Origin: Salminus brasiliensis | Lineage: Eukaryota; Chordata; Actinopteri; Characiformes; Bryconidae | Reading direction: 5' to 3' | DNA: 64,000 nt | Assembly: GCF_030463535.1 (NCBI RefSeq) | Contig: NC_132893.1 | Span: 17,654,027 to 17,718,026 of the forward strand | Shown: piece by piece, positions 1,985 to 46,177 of the stretch | Layout: each line of letters begins with the position of its first letter | How positions within the stretch are numbered: the stretch's first letter is position 1 | Notes under the pieces: model-generated | What the model was told of the DNA's origin: nothing | Seen by the model: the letters and a program-made list of their open reading frames with translations, nothing else | Databases searched by the model: none | Program-made: the position numbers and the translations under genes

Positions 1985-2744
1985 CCAGTGGCATGCAAAA
2001 GTTTGGGCACCCCGCTTAACATTTCTGTTACTGTGAATAGCGGAAAGTGAGCAGAAGATGAACTGATCTGCCAAAAGTTAAAGATGGAATCCGCTTTTTA
2101 AAAATGCTTTCTGCTTTTTGGTGTACTCTTTTGTTCCTAATGTAATTCTGAAATGACACTTAACACCAGTGGTGGAGGCCTATAAGAGCCAGCAGGAGGT
2201 GACCTATAAGAGTATTTAGTAGACCCTGAAGCGGTAGTGCACTGTTCTACTGTGCAGCAATACCTGCACAAATATGATTTTCATGGAAGAGTCTTCAAGA
2301 AGGAAACCTTTCCTGCACCCTCAGCATCAGATGTTTTCAAAAGAACATCTAAACAACGACTTAAGCATTTTGCCAGCAAGATGAAGTTAAACTACAAATA
2401 TTTGGTATGTTTGGATGAAAATCGTGTACATTTTAATGAAAAGATCCCTGTTCCAACTGTGAAGCACAATTGTGGGTAAATCATACTCTGGGACTGTGTT
2501 ACAGCCAGTGGCACAGGAAACATTTGCACAGCTGCAAATTCTGTAAAAATAAAAAGTGAAGATGGAAAGAGGATCTAGGGTAATGATCCTTAACACCTCA
2601 AAATCTGAAAAGCTGAACGTTTTGCCATGGCCCTCAGAGTCCCCAGACCTAGACATCATTAAAAATGTGTGGGCAGACCTTAAAAGAGAACAGCAGCAAG
2701 CAGTTGACCAGTCTTATTGGAGAGTTAAATTCAATTGATTGGTT
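1985..2744 (+). pseudogene. Second, different Tc1-like element remnant inside the inverted duplication
   Basis: It begins with GCAAAAGTTTGGGCACCCC, a terminal sequence typical of one fish Tc1 family. Transposase pieces follow in shifted frames: YLHKYDFHGRVFKK and CLDENRVHFNEK (2260-2450), PTVKHNCG (2455-2477) and PWPSESPDLDIIKNVWADLKR (2625-2690). The N-terminal domain is largely missing, so the copy is dead. Confidence 0.75.
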
Positions 2745-3446
2745 TTCTGGCACTGATCCGAATTTTCAATACAGTCCCCATATTTGAGGTCTGGACTTTG
2801 GGAAGGTCATTCCCAAAGCCTAATGTTACCCTACTTTATCCATTCCACAACCATCTCTGATGTGCTTTTGGGATCAATTTCCTGTTGAAATATCCAGCTA
2901 TGTCTAAGTATAAACCATCCAGCTGATAGTTTAATCATCGTCATTATTCCATCTTTTGTTTGCAACCCCCACCATGCTTAACAGTTGGTAAGGTGTTCTT
3001 GGGGTTAAATGCCTCATCATTACTCCTTCAATTATCTCTGACTCATCTGATCATAAAGCTTTTCTCCTGAAGGTGCTTTCTTTGTGCTTCTTCCTTGGGC
3101 TGCAGACCTCTAAGGCCATGCCAGTGTAAAGCTTACTTGACTGTAGACAGTGACACTGATGTTCCAGCAGCTTTTAGTTGAAGGCTGGGTTATTTCTGAC
3201 TAAGTTTCGAAATATCTGCTAATCTCAGCTAAGGGTGACAGTTTGGGTCTTCTTCCAGAGTTCGACAAAGTGTCTACACCTCCAAATAACATGTACTTTC
3301 TTTGAACTAGTGATTAGGTAATCTGCAGTCGTTTAGAAATGGCTCCAAGAGACAATTCTGACTTGTGTAAATCTATAACCATCCTGCACTGCACTGAGCT
3401 CCCATTGTGCTGTGTGTTGCTCAATTCAATAACGTAACTCTGTCAT
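2745..3446 (-). pseudogene. Decayed Tc1-like transposon copy, right arm of an inverted duplication
   Basis: This is the reverse complement of 304-1056 over almost its whole length, with substitutions and small indels. The outer ends pair ATGACAGAGTTACG (304) with its complement ending at 3446, and the inner ends pair at 1056 and 2745. The two transposase remnants face each other tail to tail. Confidence 0.8.
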
Positions 3447-4172
3447 CCAGTTTTCTCTTGTACAACATCCAGAGAATTTGACCCTTCCTCTCTAGAGAGG
3501 CCGCCCAGGTGCTCGTTCAGTCTCTCATCACTTCAAGACTTGACCACTGCAACTCTCTTCTGGCTGGTCTCCCTCTGCGCATCATCAGGCCCCTGCAACT
3601 CATCCAGAATGCAGCGGCACGGGTTGTCTTCAACATCCCTAAATTCAGCCATGTCACTCCACTGCTGCGTTCTCTTCACTGGCTTCCTGTAGCTGCTTCC
3701 CGCATCAGATTCAAAACCCTGACGCTGGTCTACAAAGCCAAGAACGGACCAGCCCCTCCATATCTGATGGCAATGGTCAAAAGCCGATCCGCACCAAGAG
3801 CCCTTCCAGCTTCAAGTACGGCTCGGCTCGACCCGCCATCCCTCAAAATCCATGGAAGACAAGCGTCCAGTCTTTTTTCTGTCCTGCACCGAAGTGGTGG
3901 AACGAGCTTCCCCTGGGTGTCCGAACGGCAGAGTTGCTCACTGTCTTCAAACACAGACTGAAGACCCACCTCTTCCCAGAATACTTGAGCGAATAGCAGA
4001 GTGGTCACCTTATTGACTTGTGTCTAGTAGTGTCTAAACTTAGAGATATCTTTGAATTTTAGCCTTTTCAAACTAGCTGAGGTTTTTCTTAAGTAAATAG
4101 CAAAGCACTTTTGTAAGTCGCTCTAGATAAGAGCGTCTGCTAAATGCTGTAAATTTAAATGTAAATGTAAGT
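3447..4172 (+). pseudogene. 5'-truncated L2/CR1-type LINE, reverse transcriptase C-terminus and 3' tail
   Basis: A 150-codon open stretch (3509-3961) shows the LINE RT C-terminal pattern: LVQSLITSRLDHCNSLLAGLP, LQLIQNAAARVVF, HVTPLLRSLHWLPV and RIRFKTLTLVYKA. It ends in the fish L2-type 3' tail GTAAGTCGCTCTAGATAAGA and a short TGTAAA-type run near 4150-4170. It abuts the right arm of the inverted duplication at 3446/3447. Confidence 0.85.
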
Positions 4173-9274: not shown

Positions 9275-9686
9275 ATAGGGTTTAATATGATGTCAGGCCA
9301 CCCTATGAAGCTATAACAGCTTCAACTCATCTGGGAAGCTTTCCACAAGGTTTAGGAGTGTGTTTATGGGAATTCTTGACTATTTTTCCAGAAGCGCATT
9401 TGTGAGGTCAGACACCGATGTTGGCTCTCAGTCTCTACTCTAATTCATCCCAAAGGTTTTCTATCGGGTTGAGGGCAGGCAGGCCAGTCAAGTTCGTCTA
9501 CACCTAACTCGCTCGTCCATGTCTCATCAGGACCTTGCTTTGTGCACTGGTGCGCAGTCATGTTGGAACAGGAAGGGGCCATCCTCAAACTGTTCCTGCA
9601 AAGTTGGGAGCATGAAATTGACCAAAATCTCTTGGAGATTTAAAAAACAACCCCACACCATAATCCCCCCTCCACCAAACTTTACA
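9275..9686 (-). pseudogene. Tc1-like element, C-terminal/3' part, split by a LINE
   Basis: Reading the minus strand, the TGTAAAGTTTGGTGGAGG segment at 9670-9686 encodes the VKFGGGGIMVWGCF block of the transposase, followed by degraded sequence to the 3' end. The matching 5' half lies at 10958-11590, so one element has been interrupted. The right terminal repeat is not evident near 9275. Confidence 0.8.
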
Positions 9687-10957
9687 TTGACATTTACAGC
9701 ATTTAGCAGACGCTCTTATCCAGAGCGACTTACAAAAGTGCTTTGCTATTTACTTAAGAATAACCTCCGCTAGTTTGAAAAGGCTAAAATTCAAAGATAT
9801 CTCTAAGTTAAGACACTACTAGACACAAGTCAATTGGGTGACCACTCTGCTTTTCGCCCAAGTATTCTCTGAAGAGGTGGGTCTTCAGTCTGCGTTTGAA
9901 GACAGCGAGCAGCTCCCAGAGGAAGCTCGTTCCACCATTTCGGTGCAGGACAGAAAAAAGTCTGGACGCTTGTCTTCCGTGGATTTTGAGAGATGGCGTG
10001 TCGAGCCGAGCTGTACTTGAAGCTCGAAGGGCTCTTGGTGCAGATCGGCTTTTGACCATTGCCATCAAGTATGGAGGGGCTGGTCCGTTCTTGGCTTTGT
10101 AGACCAGCGTCAGGGTTTTGAATCTGATGCGGGCAGCAGCTACAGGAAGCCAGTGAAGAGAACGCAGCAGTGGAGTGACATGGCTGAATTTAGGAACATT
10201 GAAGACGACCCGTGCCGCTACATTCTGGATAAGTTGCAGGGGCCTGATGGTGCGCAGAGGAAGACCAGCCAGAAGAGAGTTGCAGTAGTCAAGTCTTGAA
10301 GTGACGAGAGACTGAACGAGCACCTGGGTGGCCTCTCTAGAGAGGAAGGGTCGAATTCTTTGGATGTTGTACAGGAGAAATCTGCAGGACCGAGTTACGT
10401 TTGCAACATGACTTGAGAACACCAAGGCTTCAAGCTTCTGTAGAAGGAGTGACCAGTGATTTCTTAAAGGAGATGACAAGATTGTTTTTAGGTCCGGCAG
10501 TTCCCGGGATGTACAGCAGCTCTGTCTTGCTGGGGTTGAGTTTGAGGTGGTGAGCCGTCATCCAAGAAGAGACGTCAGAGACATGCTGAGATATGTGCGG
10601 AGACCTGTGTGTCAGACGGTGGGAAGGAAAGCATGAGTTGAGTGTCGTCGACATAACAGTGGTAAGAGAATCCATGAGAGGATATCACTTTACCAAGAGA
10701 GCTAGTGTAGAGTGAGAAAACCTTTTTTAAACCTTTTCACCTTTTGAAAAGAAGAGGACCAAGAACCGAGCCTTGTGGAACACCAGTGAAGACACTACAA
10801 GGAGCAGATGTGTTCCCCTGCCATGTTACCTGGTATGAGCGTCCCTGCAGGTATGATACAAACCATTGCCATGCAGAGCCGGTAATTCCAAGGCTGGCAC
10901 GGAAGCTTTAGCTGCATGGAGCTTCTCTGTTACTGCAATGAGAGCAGTTTCAGTAGA
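9687..10957 (-). pseudogene. 5'-truncated L2/CR1-type LINE inserted into a Tc1 element
   Basis: The 3' tail (complement of GACATTTACAGCATTTAGCAG) starts at 9687. Upstream on the minus strand are a 223-codon open RT C-terminus (9808-10479; LVQSLVTSRLDYCNSLLAGLP, LQLIQNVAARVVF, LRSLHWLPVAAARIRF) and SSWMTAHHLKLNPSKTELLY near 10510-10575 in a shifted frame. It is closely similar to the copy at 3447-4172 but longer and in the opposite orientation. Both edges meet Tc1 sequence that is contiguous in intact elements. Confidence 0.85.
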
Positions 10958-15800: not shown

Positions 15801-18190
15801 GCCATGCCTTTCTATGGAGCGTATGGTCAGAGTGGCCAGAGTTACCCTGCTGGAAGTGGCACCACCGCAAACACAGAGGAGGCAGAGGTACAAACTAGAG
15901 GAGAGCTAGGTAAGCTGCTTCGAGTGGCTGACAGCCAGGAGCTCCAGCTCAGCAACCTGCTCTCCAGGGAACGACTAAGCCCAGAAGGACTGGACCGGAT
16001 GGCACAACTGAGGTTAGTATAGGTTGTGTTCTTTTTGAATTTAGGAGCTGTAGGATCACAGTTGACAGTATCGTAACAAATTCTATTGCAGAATGTCAAA
16101 ATATGCTTTTCTGAGCCCATTGTGGATATCAGTTTCATTGTTCATTCTAACAAGGGAAGCATGACATATTATAATATGATATATTATAAATTAAAAGCAT
16201 GTTTAATATTATTGGTCTGATGACCGATTGGTCCATTTTCTAAAAAAGCAACTCAGGGTTGTCCAATCTTATTTGCAAAGGGTCTGTGTGGCTTTCACCC
16301 TAAACAACCAGCAGCACACCTGACTACCCTTGTTAAATCAATTTTGTGAGTCAATTTTTTATTAAATCGTTACAGACTGAAGTTGGCCTCTTATTCTCTT
16401 ATTGAAATTTTCCATTCCATCTTAAATAGTGCCTTAAACACATTGCCAGAAAAGCACACAGCGAATACGCTTTTTATTTTTAATGAACAGCCTATAATAG
16501 CCCTTGGTGGAGGGTGCAACAAGAGACAACCAATCGCTTAACAGGTGTATTATTTGGTTGCACATGAGGCTGCACATGAGGCTGCACAAGACAAAATCAG
16601 CATGGAGTGAGAAAATGTGTGCAGACTTTGTGCAGACAAAATTGATAAAGGAGGGCTGATCAGTTTGCCAGTATGGCAGGTTTGGATTCTGAATTCTACT
16701 AAACATTTACTGCTCATGAGTTGTCATATGTGTTTAAAACACTCATTTGTTCTCTTTGGTCCAACATTCCTCTCTGCTGTGCTGGTTGTTTGTATTTTAC
16801 ATTATTTGCTGCACTAACATACACTTTTAATGGTAGGCAATTTTTCTGCATTACTTAGTGGAAATAGTTGTGCTTTGGGCCACAGCCTTTGTGCTTCTTG
16901 TAAGAGGCAAGTAAGGGAAATGGCAAGTGGCTGAAACTAGGGATCAAGATATGGAAAAAACTGACACTGGAATATGTTATTATATGTGTATATATGGTAT
17001 ATATACGTGGTATTTTTAACATGTTGACGGTATCTCAAAATCAGGACTGTATATCAAAATTCAAAGTCTTCTTTAATTTTCAAAAAGTTGTTAGTAAATT
17101 ACCGGTAACTTTCCATGGGAACTTAGCTCGGGAACTTATGAAATATTCCAGAATGTAAACTTTTCATGGATATTGAGGACTATGGGAATTTAGGAAGTAG
17201 CTAGCCATCGTAAACTAACCTCTTGCTTGCCTGCAAGACTTGGTGAACTAGTCTCAAATGAGATTGCTTATTAAGCTTTTCTGATTTACCAGACAGCAAC
17301 TGTGAGATTTCATAGTTGCTTAAATGTTTCAGTGCTATTACTGTCAATAATAATATGAACCTTCTCAAAACTTACCTAACGTTAGGCAGTCCTTTGGTCC
17401 AAATGCGTGCTTTTAGTAGTGGTGAGAGTCAGGTTTCTAGAAATCATCTGGACATATGCTGTACATGTGATGGAGGTTTAAACAGTGAATGCAGGGGCTG
17501 TGGTCTCAATGGCCCTTCAGTGTGTAATTGTTTATTTCAAGATTATGATTCAGTATATTTGTTACCAAGTATGTTTCTCACCTTTAGCTTCTAATATTTT
17601 CATTTAATTCCTGTTAATTCCCAATGGAAATTTCCCAGAATTTTTGCAACCCCAGCCAGTATTTGGGTTTTTGAATGAACACTGACATGGTAACATTTTA
17701 AATTTTTAAAATTAGTAAAAAAAAAAAAAGTAAATTATTACTGTAATACTTTTCAGCTGGGAACTTTTTTGATTCTTAATGCTTTAAATCACTGTTACAA
17801 CATTAAGCAGTCATCTTTATTTTTTGTCTTTCTCCCACTGAGCTGTAAAAGCTCATGTGACTGAAACATATTAAGATGCTGTAACACTCAAATAGGGTAC
17901 TTGATAACTGAATTTGCACCCCGTTAATAGCATTTATGGTGACGATAATCTAAAGTCTACATTATATTATTGCTCAAGTCTAATTTTGTTTATGCTGTAT
18001 CGATCAGCCGTAAGTCATTGTCGCGGGGACAGTGGTGGCTCAGAGCTTAGTGCTCCAGGCTATTGATGACAGGGTAGTGGGTTTGATACCCGGGCTCGGC
18101 AAGCTGTCACTGTTGGGCCCTTGATCAAGACCCTCCACCCTCTCAGCTCTCACTGCTTTGGATGTGTGCGTGTGCTCACTGCCCCTAGTT

Positions 18191-33186: not shown

Positions 33187-33330
33187 TAAAGGAAGTGGTG
33201 GCTCAGTGGTTAGAGCACTAGGCTGTTGATGAGAGGGTTGTGGGTTCGATACCCACACTTCCTTGGGGGTGGCGGCGATGGCTGCCTGTTGCTCCAGGAG
33301 CACATGCTCACCGTCACACACAGTGTGTGT
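33187..33330 (+). mobile_element. tRNA-derived SINE copy 2, head portion
   Basis: AGTGGTGGCTCAGTGGTTAG (A-box region) and GGGTTCGATACCC (B box) form a tRNA-like head. The body diverges after TTGGGGGTGGCGG and the tail is absent or unrecognisable. Confidence 0.65.
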
Positions 33331-34128: not shown

Positions 34129-34412
34129 TGTAAAGGTGCACATATTTGTCACTGTACACTGTACAGCGAAATGTGTCCTCCTTTAACCCATCTGGTAGTG
34201 AACACACACTCACACACACATGTGTTAGGGGCAGTGAGTACACACTGGTGCCCACAGTGGTGGGCAGCCAACTCCAGCGCCCGGGGAGCAGAGAGGGTAA
34301 AGGGCCTTGCTCAAGGGCCCAACAGTGGCAGTTTGCCGAGCCCGGGAATCGAACCCACAACCCTGTTATCAATATCCCGGCGCTCTAACCGCTGAGCCAC
34401 CACTGCCCCTAA
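34126..34412 (-). mobile_element. tRNA-derived SINE copy 3, complete, directly beside a DNA element
   Basis: On the minus strand: AGTGGTGGCTCAGCGGTTAG at the head, GGGTTCGATTCCCGGGCTCG (B box), GTTGGGCCCTTGAGCAAGG, a CA/TG-rich part and a tail reading GAGGACACATTTCGCTGTAC and then TGCACCTTTACATCAACC. It is the best-preserved of the three copies. Confidence 0.8.
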
Positions 34413-43900: not shown

Positions 43901-46177
43901 TGCAAGCCCAAGCTTGAAGATAGCCCTATACTATATGAAAGTTTATCATCTCTCCTTTAATTGGACAAGCTAGACTAGATCAAGTTCTCTGGCTAAACAG
44001 AAAAAGCCTGCTGTGTGAAATATCCCCCAAGTAGATTTTAGTTCTACATCCCTCAAAAAAACAAATAAACCGCTTAGGCTGAATCCAGCTGTCCCATGAA
44101 CATCTTGATGTCTTTGTGCGCTCACTGGGCCACTAAACAGAAGAAGACGAAAAAGAAGAAGAAGAACGTAGTGGTAGAAACACTGTACCTCCTTTGAAGG
44201 GTTGCTGGGTTTGGAAATGATAGTTTTCCAGTATGACCACATAAACATTATGAAGCTGATATGAAAGACTATCAGATAAATAACTGGAAAAGAAAAGAAA
44301 AGGGGAAATAGTGATTTTATTTCCATCGGTCCTCTAACGTACAGTTTTAGGTTCAACATCGTTCAGCCTAAACAAGCTGCATTGAAAGAGGTAGCAATCC
44401 ATCACAGCATGAATGAATACACTCGTGTAGCAAAGTGTGTTGTGTTCTACAAGCAGACCCACTCTTACCTTGCTCTTCAGTGTTAGGGATTGTGTCTGGA
44501 GGGGGGAGAGAGAAGGAGAGAGAGAGAGAAAGAGAGAGACACTAAGTGAGAGTGCGATCCATTGATTAAGTGACAATCCTCCTCCATTCAGAGGCAGCTG
44601 CTGAGTGCAGATTGGCAGCCGAGTTGTCCGCCTTGCCTCTCACCTCCTCTCCCCAGCCAGGCCAGTAAGGCCAGTCCACGGGGAGGCTGGCACTGCCATC
44701 TGGCCCGGAGAAAGCCCTCCTTGTGTTCAACAGCAAGGAGATACCTCCTCTAGAACAATGACAACTGAACAACAGGTGCTTCTTTTATATGACTGGATGT
44801 AAACCTCTATACTGCTGGACTGTAGCGTAAGCTTATTCATTACCCAGCGTGTGCGTGTGTGTGTGTGTGCCTTTATACGTCCGAATCAAGGAAACTGCCT
44901 AAAGCTCTGCACTTTGATCTGATCTGCTAGGCCAGTGTAATTGGGACAAATGACACAAGGAAGCAGACACTTAAGAGCTGTGTTTATTTTACATGGGAAG
45001 GAGAAGGCGGCCTAGGGCGTTAATGTGAGAGTGACTCACAGGAAATCCTCATGTTCTGCATGGAGAGCTGGTAAGACTACAGGCTTCAAAGCTGTCATAT
45101 TACAAGAGAGACAGGTAGAGAGACAGGCAGAGAGACAGACAGAGAGACAGGCAGAGAGACAGGCAGAGAGACAGACAGAGAGACAGACAGAGACAGATAG
45201 AGAGACAGGTACAGAGACAGGCAGAGAGACAGGTACAGAGACAGGCAGAGAGACAGACAGAGAGACAGGTAGAGAGACAGACAGAGACAGATAGAGAGAC
45301 AGGCACAGAGACAGATAGAGAGAGAGACAGAGAGACAGGCACAGAGACAGATAGAGAGACAGGCAGAGAGAGAGACGCAGAATAAGGAAAGAGGAACAGA
45401 GAGGGGGGAAAACGACTGATTTTGCCAAATTAACCATCAGAATTGTGAAAACTTAGACATGTCCCAACAACACTTGTTGAAAAGGCTGGTTACGGAAATG
45501 AGCCTCAGCTCGGTCAGTGAACCGGACCTGTGGGGGAAGACATGAGCTAACGGCTCTGGCCGCCGAATTAGCGAAGTTTTGGGCGAAATTTGCAGAGAAA
45601 AAGTCTGTAAATGCTGAAAACTGGATCTGACACTTTTTCCTCAGCAAATTTCGCCCAAAACTTCGCTAATTCGGCGGCCAGAGCCGTTAGCTCATGTCTA
45701 CCGTCACCGCTTTTGACAGCTGAGAGCTGAGGAAGCCCCCCGTTAGTCTACTGAGAGCAGTTTCACCGGCGACTTTACGGATATGTCGGCTTTCCGTCGC
45801 TCACAACACACAGCATTGAGGTTAAACTACGTGAGACAGCGAACTGAGCCACTGTAAAAGTTTGGAGACGAACTGGACCCGGTTCGTGAGGTGAAGTGGG
45901 AGGTAGTTGATAAGTTAGTCCAGATTTGAGAAAGATCATCACCGGTACCAGGCAGACACAGACACTCCACAGCGGCGCTGCCGTCTCCCCGACCAACCCC
46001 TCAAACAGGCGGGCTAGCTCTCCTCTCAGAGAAACCCCACAGAAATGTGTGCTACTTACAAATGCAGAGCTCCACGACGTAGGCATAATAGGACCAGCAT
46101 ACGACCAGGTTGATAAAAATAACAGGTATCCACGATAAGCCCCGCTGACAGCATCTCAACACATGAGAGGGCGCCAT
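37944..46177 (-). CDS. zdhhc20: ZDHHC20-type DHHC palmitoyltransferase; 13 coding exons
   Basis: Coding exons from the start (minus strand): 46177-46060, 44495-44469, 44283-44189, 43428-43308, 43153-43084, 42970-42938, 41588-41468, 41150-41115, 40606-40474, 40029-39903, 38803-38717, 38287-38178, 37987-37944 (TAA). Junctions are GT/AG, phases agree, and the total is 1,122 nt, giving 373 aa, the usual family length. Two membrane segments lie near residues 14-34 and 50-72. The Cys-rich domain, about 124-166, carries DHHC at 150-153 (catalytic Cys about 153). Two further membrane segments follow near 163-193 and 215-240. TTxE is at 249-252 and the PaCCT motif (N...VFG) at 275-281. The N-terminus [18 protein letters not shown] and the ELC..T start of loop 1 match ZDHHC20 better than ZDHHC2 or ZDHHC15. 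The family S-acylates membrane-protein cysteines, ZDHHC20 mainly at Golgi and plasma membrane. Which teleost duplicate (a or b) this is cannot be told. Confidence 0.95.
38471..38504. repeat. Perfect 13-bp-arm hairpin in zdhhc20 intron 11
   Basis: TTGCCCAGTAAAA (38471-38483) and its exact complement (38492-38504) are separated by 8 bases. No element was identified around it. Confidence 0.6.
41115..41150 (-). CDS. zdhhc20: zdhhc20 exon 8: 36-nt in-frame microexon, candidate cassette
   Basis: A 36-nt exon encodes [12 protein letters not shown] between the exons ending ..YFIKFWT and starting [10 protein letters not shown]. It has an AAAG acceptor and a GAG|gtaaaa donor and is phase 0 on both sides, so skipping removes 12 residues in the loop between membrane segments 3 and 4 without a frameshift. 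As I recall it, the human reference protein passes directly from FWT to NEL, so the exon is probably alternatively spliced. Confidence 0.7.
42135..42317. mobile_element. MITE with GGATGCCCAA...TTGGGCATCC-type ends in zdhhc20 intron 6
   Basis: The left end GGATGCCCAACCCTGTTCCT and right end AGGACTGGGCATCC are imperfect inverted repeats of about 26 bp around a non-coding core. Related half-ends (CTCAATCCTGGTCCTGGAG) occur near 7383 and 47018, a family common in fishes. Confidence 0.6.
45105..45376. repeat. 12-bp-unit minisatellite (AGACAGGCAGAG variants) in zdhhc20 intron 1
   Basis: About 270 bases of tandem AGACAGNNAGAG units in which NN is GC, AC, AT or GT. The open frames on both strands are products of the repeat (period divisible by three), not genes. 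Confidence 0.95.
45538..45699. repeat. Perfect 56-bp-arm inverted repeat in zdhhc20 intron 1
   Basis: Arms 45538-45593 and 45644-45699 are exact reverse complements; the 50-base spacer can pair further at its edges (AGAGAAAAAGT with ACTTTTTCCTC, one or two mismatches). The arms are GC-balanced and unrelated to the nearby minisatellite. It lies about 360 bp downstream of exon 1. Confidence 0.92.

Follow-up and report, generated by a model that had tools for sequence, protein, structure and literature searches.

A perfect 56-base inverted repeat within predicted intron 1 of zdhhc20 and its possible origin by a replication template switch

The stretch of DNA analysed in this study (64 kb, hereafter the window) carries a zdhhc20 gene on its minus strand, and a perfect inverted repeat able to form a hairpin lies between the coding part of exon 1 and the later exons of this gene (Table 1). 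Exon 1 was recognised by its translation, with 46061-46177 matching the DHHC palmitoyltransferases of PDB, and the splice donor GTAAGT comes directly after its coding part, at 46059-46054 (minus strand, read from the sequence). The best PDB match of the exon 1 peptide (39 residues) was 6bms_A (E 1.1e-11), which was slightly better than the ZDHHC20 entry 7khm_A (E 3.9e-11), so that exon 1 alone does not pick the member of the DHHC family. A later exon segment scored 63.9 bits for human DHHC20 (E 2.7e-17) against 51.7 bits for 6bms_A (E 2.8e-13), and the gene was therefore assigned to zdhhc20. A peptide resembling exon 2 begins near 44280. Since exon 1 and the later exons flank the hairpin, it lies in the predicted intron 1; both this placement and the distance of about 360 bp from exon 1, given in a first-pass annotation of the window, agree with our results, the right arm being 360 bases (45700-46059) from the exon 1 coding sequence.

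Exact matching of the two arms confirmed their length of 56 bases, their complementarity (56/56) and the spacer of 50 bases, that is, a perfect inverted repeat with its copies close together, the form sought for a template-switch product. A repeat search widened the arms to 73 bases with 93% complementarity (45530-45602 / 45635-45707). The arms are not made of simple repeats, as had been stated, and have 52% G+C and 5 CpG each. All 56 pairs in the core are plain Watson-Crick pairs without a single G-U pair, and five-base A and T tracts are located directly inside both arms. The observed/expected ratio of CpG was 1.02 in 45501-45800 and 0.87 in 45701-46000, and was 0.13, 0.06 and 0.62 in the scanned segments starting at 44901, 45101 and 45301, respectively; the arms are thus CpG-rich, as is the DNA between the arms and exon 1. 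The same intron also has an impure 12-base tandem array (AGAGAGACAGGC, about 22.6 copies) at 45105-45371, about 170 bases from the hairpin, which is purine-rich on the plus strand.

Table 1. Features of the zdhhc20 hairpin and its surroundings (positions in the window)
Feature	Position	Strand	Basis
Later zdhhc20 exon segment	40475..40594	-	Best match to human DHHC20
Possible left outer diverged extension	45503..45537	+	24/38 columns identical to complement of 45700-45732
Left arm of perfect inverted repeat, 56 bases	45538..45593	+	Exact reverse complement of 45644-45699
Spacer / hairpin loop, 50 bases	45594..45643		Sequence separating both arms
Left inner imperfect stem extension, with A-tract	45594..45604	+	10/12 columns identical to complement of 45632-45643
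Right inner imperfect stem extension	45632..45643	-	10/12 alignment columns with 45594-45604
Right arm of perfect inverted repeat, 56 bases	45644..45699	-	Exact reverse complement of 45538-45593
Possible right outer diverged extension	45700..45732	-	24/38 columns with 45503-45537
zdhhc20 exon 1 coding part	46060..46177	-	Translation; match to DHHC palmitoyltransferases of PDB

With uniform bases, about 2e-27 such pairs are expected in 64 kb. When 45500-45740 was folded and compared with 200 dinucleotide-preserving shuffles, the z score was -18.1 (minus strand) and -19.6 (plus strand), and the single-stranded DNA fold of 45538-45699 gave a z score of -20.8. A chance origin of the 56-base inverted repeat was ruled out by these values. 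RNA of the inverted repeat is predicted to form a long hairpin.

We also scanned the window for closely spaced inverted repeats (perfect arms of at least 12 bases, with no more than about 210 bases between them), from which the arms dominated by one dinucleotide were dropped first. Twelve inverted repeats were left, and the zdhhc20 hairpin was at the top with 56 bases, followed by arms of 22 bases (itself a repetitive case) and 15 bases. Seven longer exact inverted runs (58 to 68 bases) were listed for the window, all of them inside two widely separated inverted pairs toward its left end, which are 92-97% identical overall. The arms had been contrasted with the diverged repeats elsewhere in the window, and this contrast held for the zero substitutions in 56 bases but not for exact identity over such a length, which also occurs within the 92-97% identical pairs. 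What is unusual in the zdhhc20 hairpin is the short spacer, together with the fact that no other copy was found in the window, rather than the length of the exact run.

As for the other repeats in the window, a large inverted repeat at 304-1057 and 2744-3446 was aligned in two pieces, one of 346 bases (96.5% identical) and one of 361 bases (93.4% identical). Its copies are about 1.7 kb apart and share exact runs of as many as 68 bases; it has the appearance of two transposon copies in opposite orientation, or of a single element bearing long terminal repeats. Another inverted pair, 3431-4165 and 9681-10401, is 92% identical over 735 aligned bases, and each copy has a UnaL2 LINE 3' element (Rfam RF00436; 4100-4153 on the plus strand and 9693-9746 on the minus strand). 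The UnaL2 matches agree with a fish as the source of the DNA but do not prove it. The sequences at 18025-18149 and 34286-34409 form an inverted pair of a dispersed repeat (about 125 bases, 86% identity). A tRNA model matched 33192-33262 barely at the threshold (29.1 bits vs 29, E 0.057) with a negative result by ARAGORN, and this region is perhaps a tRNA-derived SINE. In the blastn comparison of the window with itself, mirror rows were dropped and a match was printed if it exceeded 100 bases or began at 45401-45799; this comparison was not used for the absence of short copies.

Complementarity continues beyond the core in an imperfect form, for about 12 bases inward and perhaps for about 35 outward, and the pairing of the spacer edges reported in the first-pass annotation was recovered as the inner extension (Table 1). 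We evaluated extensions anchored at the core against random point pairs (1,500 local pairs and 1,500 pairs from 20000-60000, for each edge and for each of three scorings). The inner extension was significant under all three scorings (P = 0.001-0.007), and the outer extension was significant under two scorings (P = 0.005-0.012) but not under the stricter third scoring (P = 0.29-0.33). In a separate anchored test with first-order Markov resamples, the observed extension was reached in 2/300 (inner) and 5/300 (outer) cases. Unanchored local alignment gave weaker results, the score being reached by 81/1000 (inner) and 31/1000 (outer) resampled pairs. For the number of differing columns in the core (0/56) and in both edges (16/50), Fisher's test gave 1.3e-6 (0.029 for the core vs the inner edge alone), although both values are optimistic because the edge alignments were chosen by score. 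Taken as observations, the inner extension of the stem is credible and the outer one is uncertain, so that the fading edges have statistical support on the inner side and are suggested on the outer side.

A perfect core within an imperfect inverted repeat is the trace expected of a template switch that rewrites one arm from the other, and we therefore infer, with somewhat better than even confidence, that an older, imperfect inverted repeat underwent such a switch during replication, and recently, which made the 56-base arms identical. Replication would have stalled in the CpG-rich DNA following exon 1, and the nascent strand would have folded back, or crossed to the sister strand, copied 56 bases of the opposite arm and then resumed its own template. 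Such an event would leave the core perfect and the former imperfect pairing intact at its edges, and today the zdhhc20 pre-mRNA would contain the product as a long hairpin, which would be spliced out with intron 1. The exclusively Watson-Crick pairs of the core point to DNA copying or youth rather than selection at the RNA level. According to PMC8794818, template switches can both create inverted repeats that are perfect and correct stems that already exist, and PMC7954356 indicates that a subset of great-ape events may be the conversion of quasipalindromes to palindromes and that A/T tracts of 4-6 bases are linked to the initiation of the switch; the zdhhc20 arms have their five-base A and T tracts just inside them. 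The length of the core is a point against the template switch, as 56 bases contrast with the expected copied length of 10 set for the great-ape events in PMC7954356. Among the patterns that PMC8794818 names for rRNA, the largest (up to 59 bases) did not pass the quality control of that paper.

The edges also bear on a one-step inverted duplication, in which template switching or break repair placed a reversed copy of a single ancestral arm close to the original and the pairing at the edges is due to chance. Such a duplication would give the same 56-base perfect core, and it explains the data nearly as well as the correction of an older repeat, because the outer extension vanishes under the stricter scoring and the unanchored edge alignments are weaker, with the inner match attained by 81/1000 of the resampled pairs. 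The anchored extensions argue against it, being significant in three of the three scorings on the inner side and in two of the three on the outer side, and on the whole we regard the one-step duplication as unlikely, though a serious alternative.

The inverted repeat could also be an ordinary mobile element. MITEs can be short elements in which long inverted repeats enclose a small loop, as in the fold-back MITEs of fishes, e.g. the Angel elements of zebrafish. The zdhhc20 feature resembles these in being a short inverted-repeat element able to form a hairpin, and the presence of other inverted repeat copies in the window (92-97% identity) would also be compatible with a fold-back MITE, or another non-autonomous transposon, with the two arms as its long terminal inverted repeats. 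Unlike these elements, it showed neither a target-site duplication beyond chance, within the ends and lengths scanned, nor a second copy in the window. No 12-mer of 45501-45740 occurred elsewhere in the 64-kb window (outside 45400-45800), and even when 3 mismatches were allowed, a 17-mer of the arm matched only the two arms in the window. Direct repeats of at least 2 bases were absent at the arm ends, where the flanks share one base on meeting the arms. In a wider scan for target-site duplications of 4-10 bases over 105 x 108 end positions, the best was a 7-mer (45490-45496 / 45775-45781), which was not accepted since 0.69 such matches are expected by chance. The arms also share their richness in CpG with the neighbouring DNA toward exon 1, a further point against an inserted element. 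We consider the MITE explanation doubtful. Two exact patterns taken from the arm had 0 matches each in viral contigs, and blastn of 45490-45790 found no match in phage records; neither collection is expected to contain fish DNA, so these negative results carry little weight.

Alternatively, the stem could be a conserved functional RNA in intron 1, such as a microRNA-like or regulatory hairpin, with its perfection kept by selection. The very stable fold predicted for both strands is compatible with this, as are sub-threshold Rfam matches to the microRNA families mir-4659 (E 1e-10) and MIR1888 (E 5.7e-9). Nevertheless, the scores are far below the gathering thresholds (54.2 vs 92 for mir-4659 and 49.6 vs 72 for MIR1888), MIR1888 scores the two strands about equally (49.6 and 47.9), and selection on RNA pairing would tolerate G-U pairs, which the core lacks. 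At the gathering threshold, no Rfam family, including the microRNA families, matched over the hairpin, and the two sub-threshold matches were set aside as generic to long hairpins, a decision made by judgement without a control hairpin. A continuous stem of 56 bases plus the edges also seems long for a microRNA precursor. Judging from the pair types, selection on an RNA stem is not needed and is weakly disfavoured, and a functional stem is a very unlikely explanation.

We likewise infer that the predicted stem would be transcribed in the pre-mRNA, where it is likely to be neutral and to have no function, and probably the likeliest biochemical consequence of the predicted hairpin would be editing by ADAR. 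A more far-reaching idea is that a recent template switch in intron 1 yielded a 56-base perfect stem which, being already transcribed from the host promoter, would enter the double-stranded-RNA machinery (ADAR, or Drosha/Dicer) as a proto-microRNA or hairpin-siRNA locus before any mismatch had arisen; this we regard as a long shot. A literature search for the combination of a first-intron inverted-repeat hairpin, ADAR and zebrafish, which was not directed at zdhhc20 itself, found no paper joining them.

Perfectly identical arms may also arise as an artefact of assembly or library construction, from a fold-back or a chimeric read. The flanking sequence, however, runs into the exons of zdhhc20, with exon 1 on one side and the later exons on the other, and the complementarity of these short, local arms fades on either side of the core without running to the contig end. 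Because of this continuity and fading, a fold-back artefact is unlikely, and we give it the least credence among the explanations considered here. The first-pass annotation had left four options for the perfection of the arms, namely recent origin, gene conversion, selection on the stem and an assembly fold-back. A template switch, as a recent event or a form of conversion, agrees best with the data, while the fold-back and selection fared less well for the reasons given above.

The age of the perfect core was approached from the zero changes in 112 sites. Under neutral evolution from the time when the arms became identical, the probability of seeing none drops to about 5% once 0.027 substitutions per site have been reached. 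We took the substitution rate as 5e-9 to 1e-8 per site per year. Given neutrality and this rate, the arms would be younger than roughly 3 to 5 million years, but this bound would be meaningless under repeated conversion between the arms. Perfection alone is also a weak clock, since perfect runs of similar length are present in the 92-97% identical inverted repeats of the window.

The hairpin is most likely the product of a known mutation process. In the parts of PMC7202029 and PMC3820800 that concern quasipalindrome-associated template-switch mutations in E. coli and yeast, the arms are perfected within a less perfect inverted repeat, as would be the case here, and the yeast events (PMC3820800) arise in transcribed DNA, just as the present hairpin is located in a predicted zdhhc20 intron. 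The zdhhc20 case differs from these in that the core is long (56 bases), and lies in an animal intron, and that the switch itself is a proposed one. An R-loop as the cause, suggested by the transcription-linked quasipalindrome mutations of PMC3820800, was unsupported, with a G/C skew of only -0.045 to -0.006 across 45550-46149. Reverse-complement repeats at microRNA loci, e.g. MIR633, are explained by a single switch in PMC8794818. The zdhhc20 hairpin is similar to hairpins of this type in that a single copying event can account for its perfect stem and in that its arms enclose a loop, but it is a case from one sequence.

If the template-switch reading is true, the zdhhc20 hairpin would be a clean and datable case in an animal gene of one replication error giving rise to a perfect RNA stem of this length, which is the step by which hairpin RNAs are proposed to be born in PMC8794818. 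It could then be used to study the frequency with which such stems appear close to gene starts, and the pace at which they decay or acquire a role, whereas a MITE copy or neutral debris would be ordinary. The hairpin would be of most use for testing how hairpin RNAs originate, provided that related introns carry an imperfect or single-arm ancestor.
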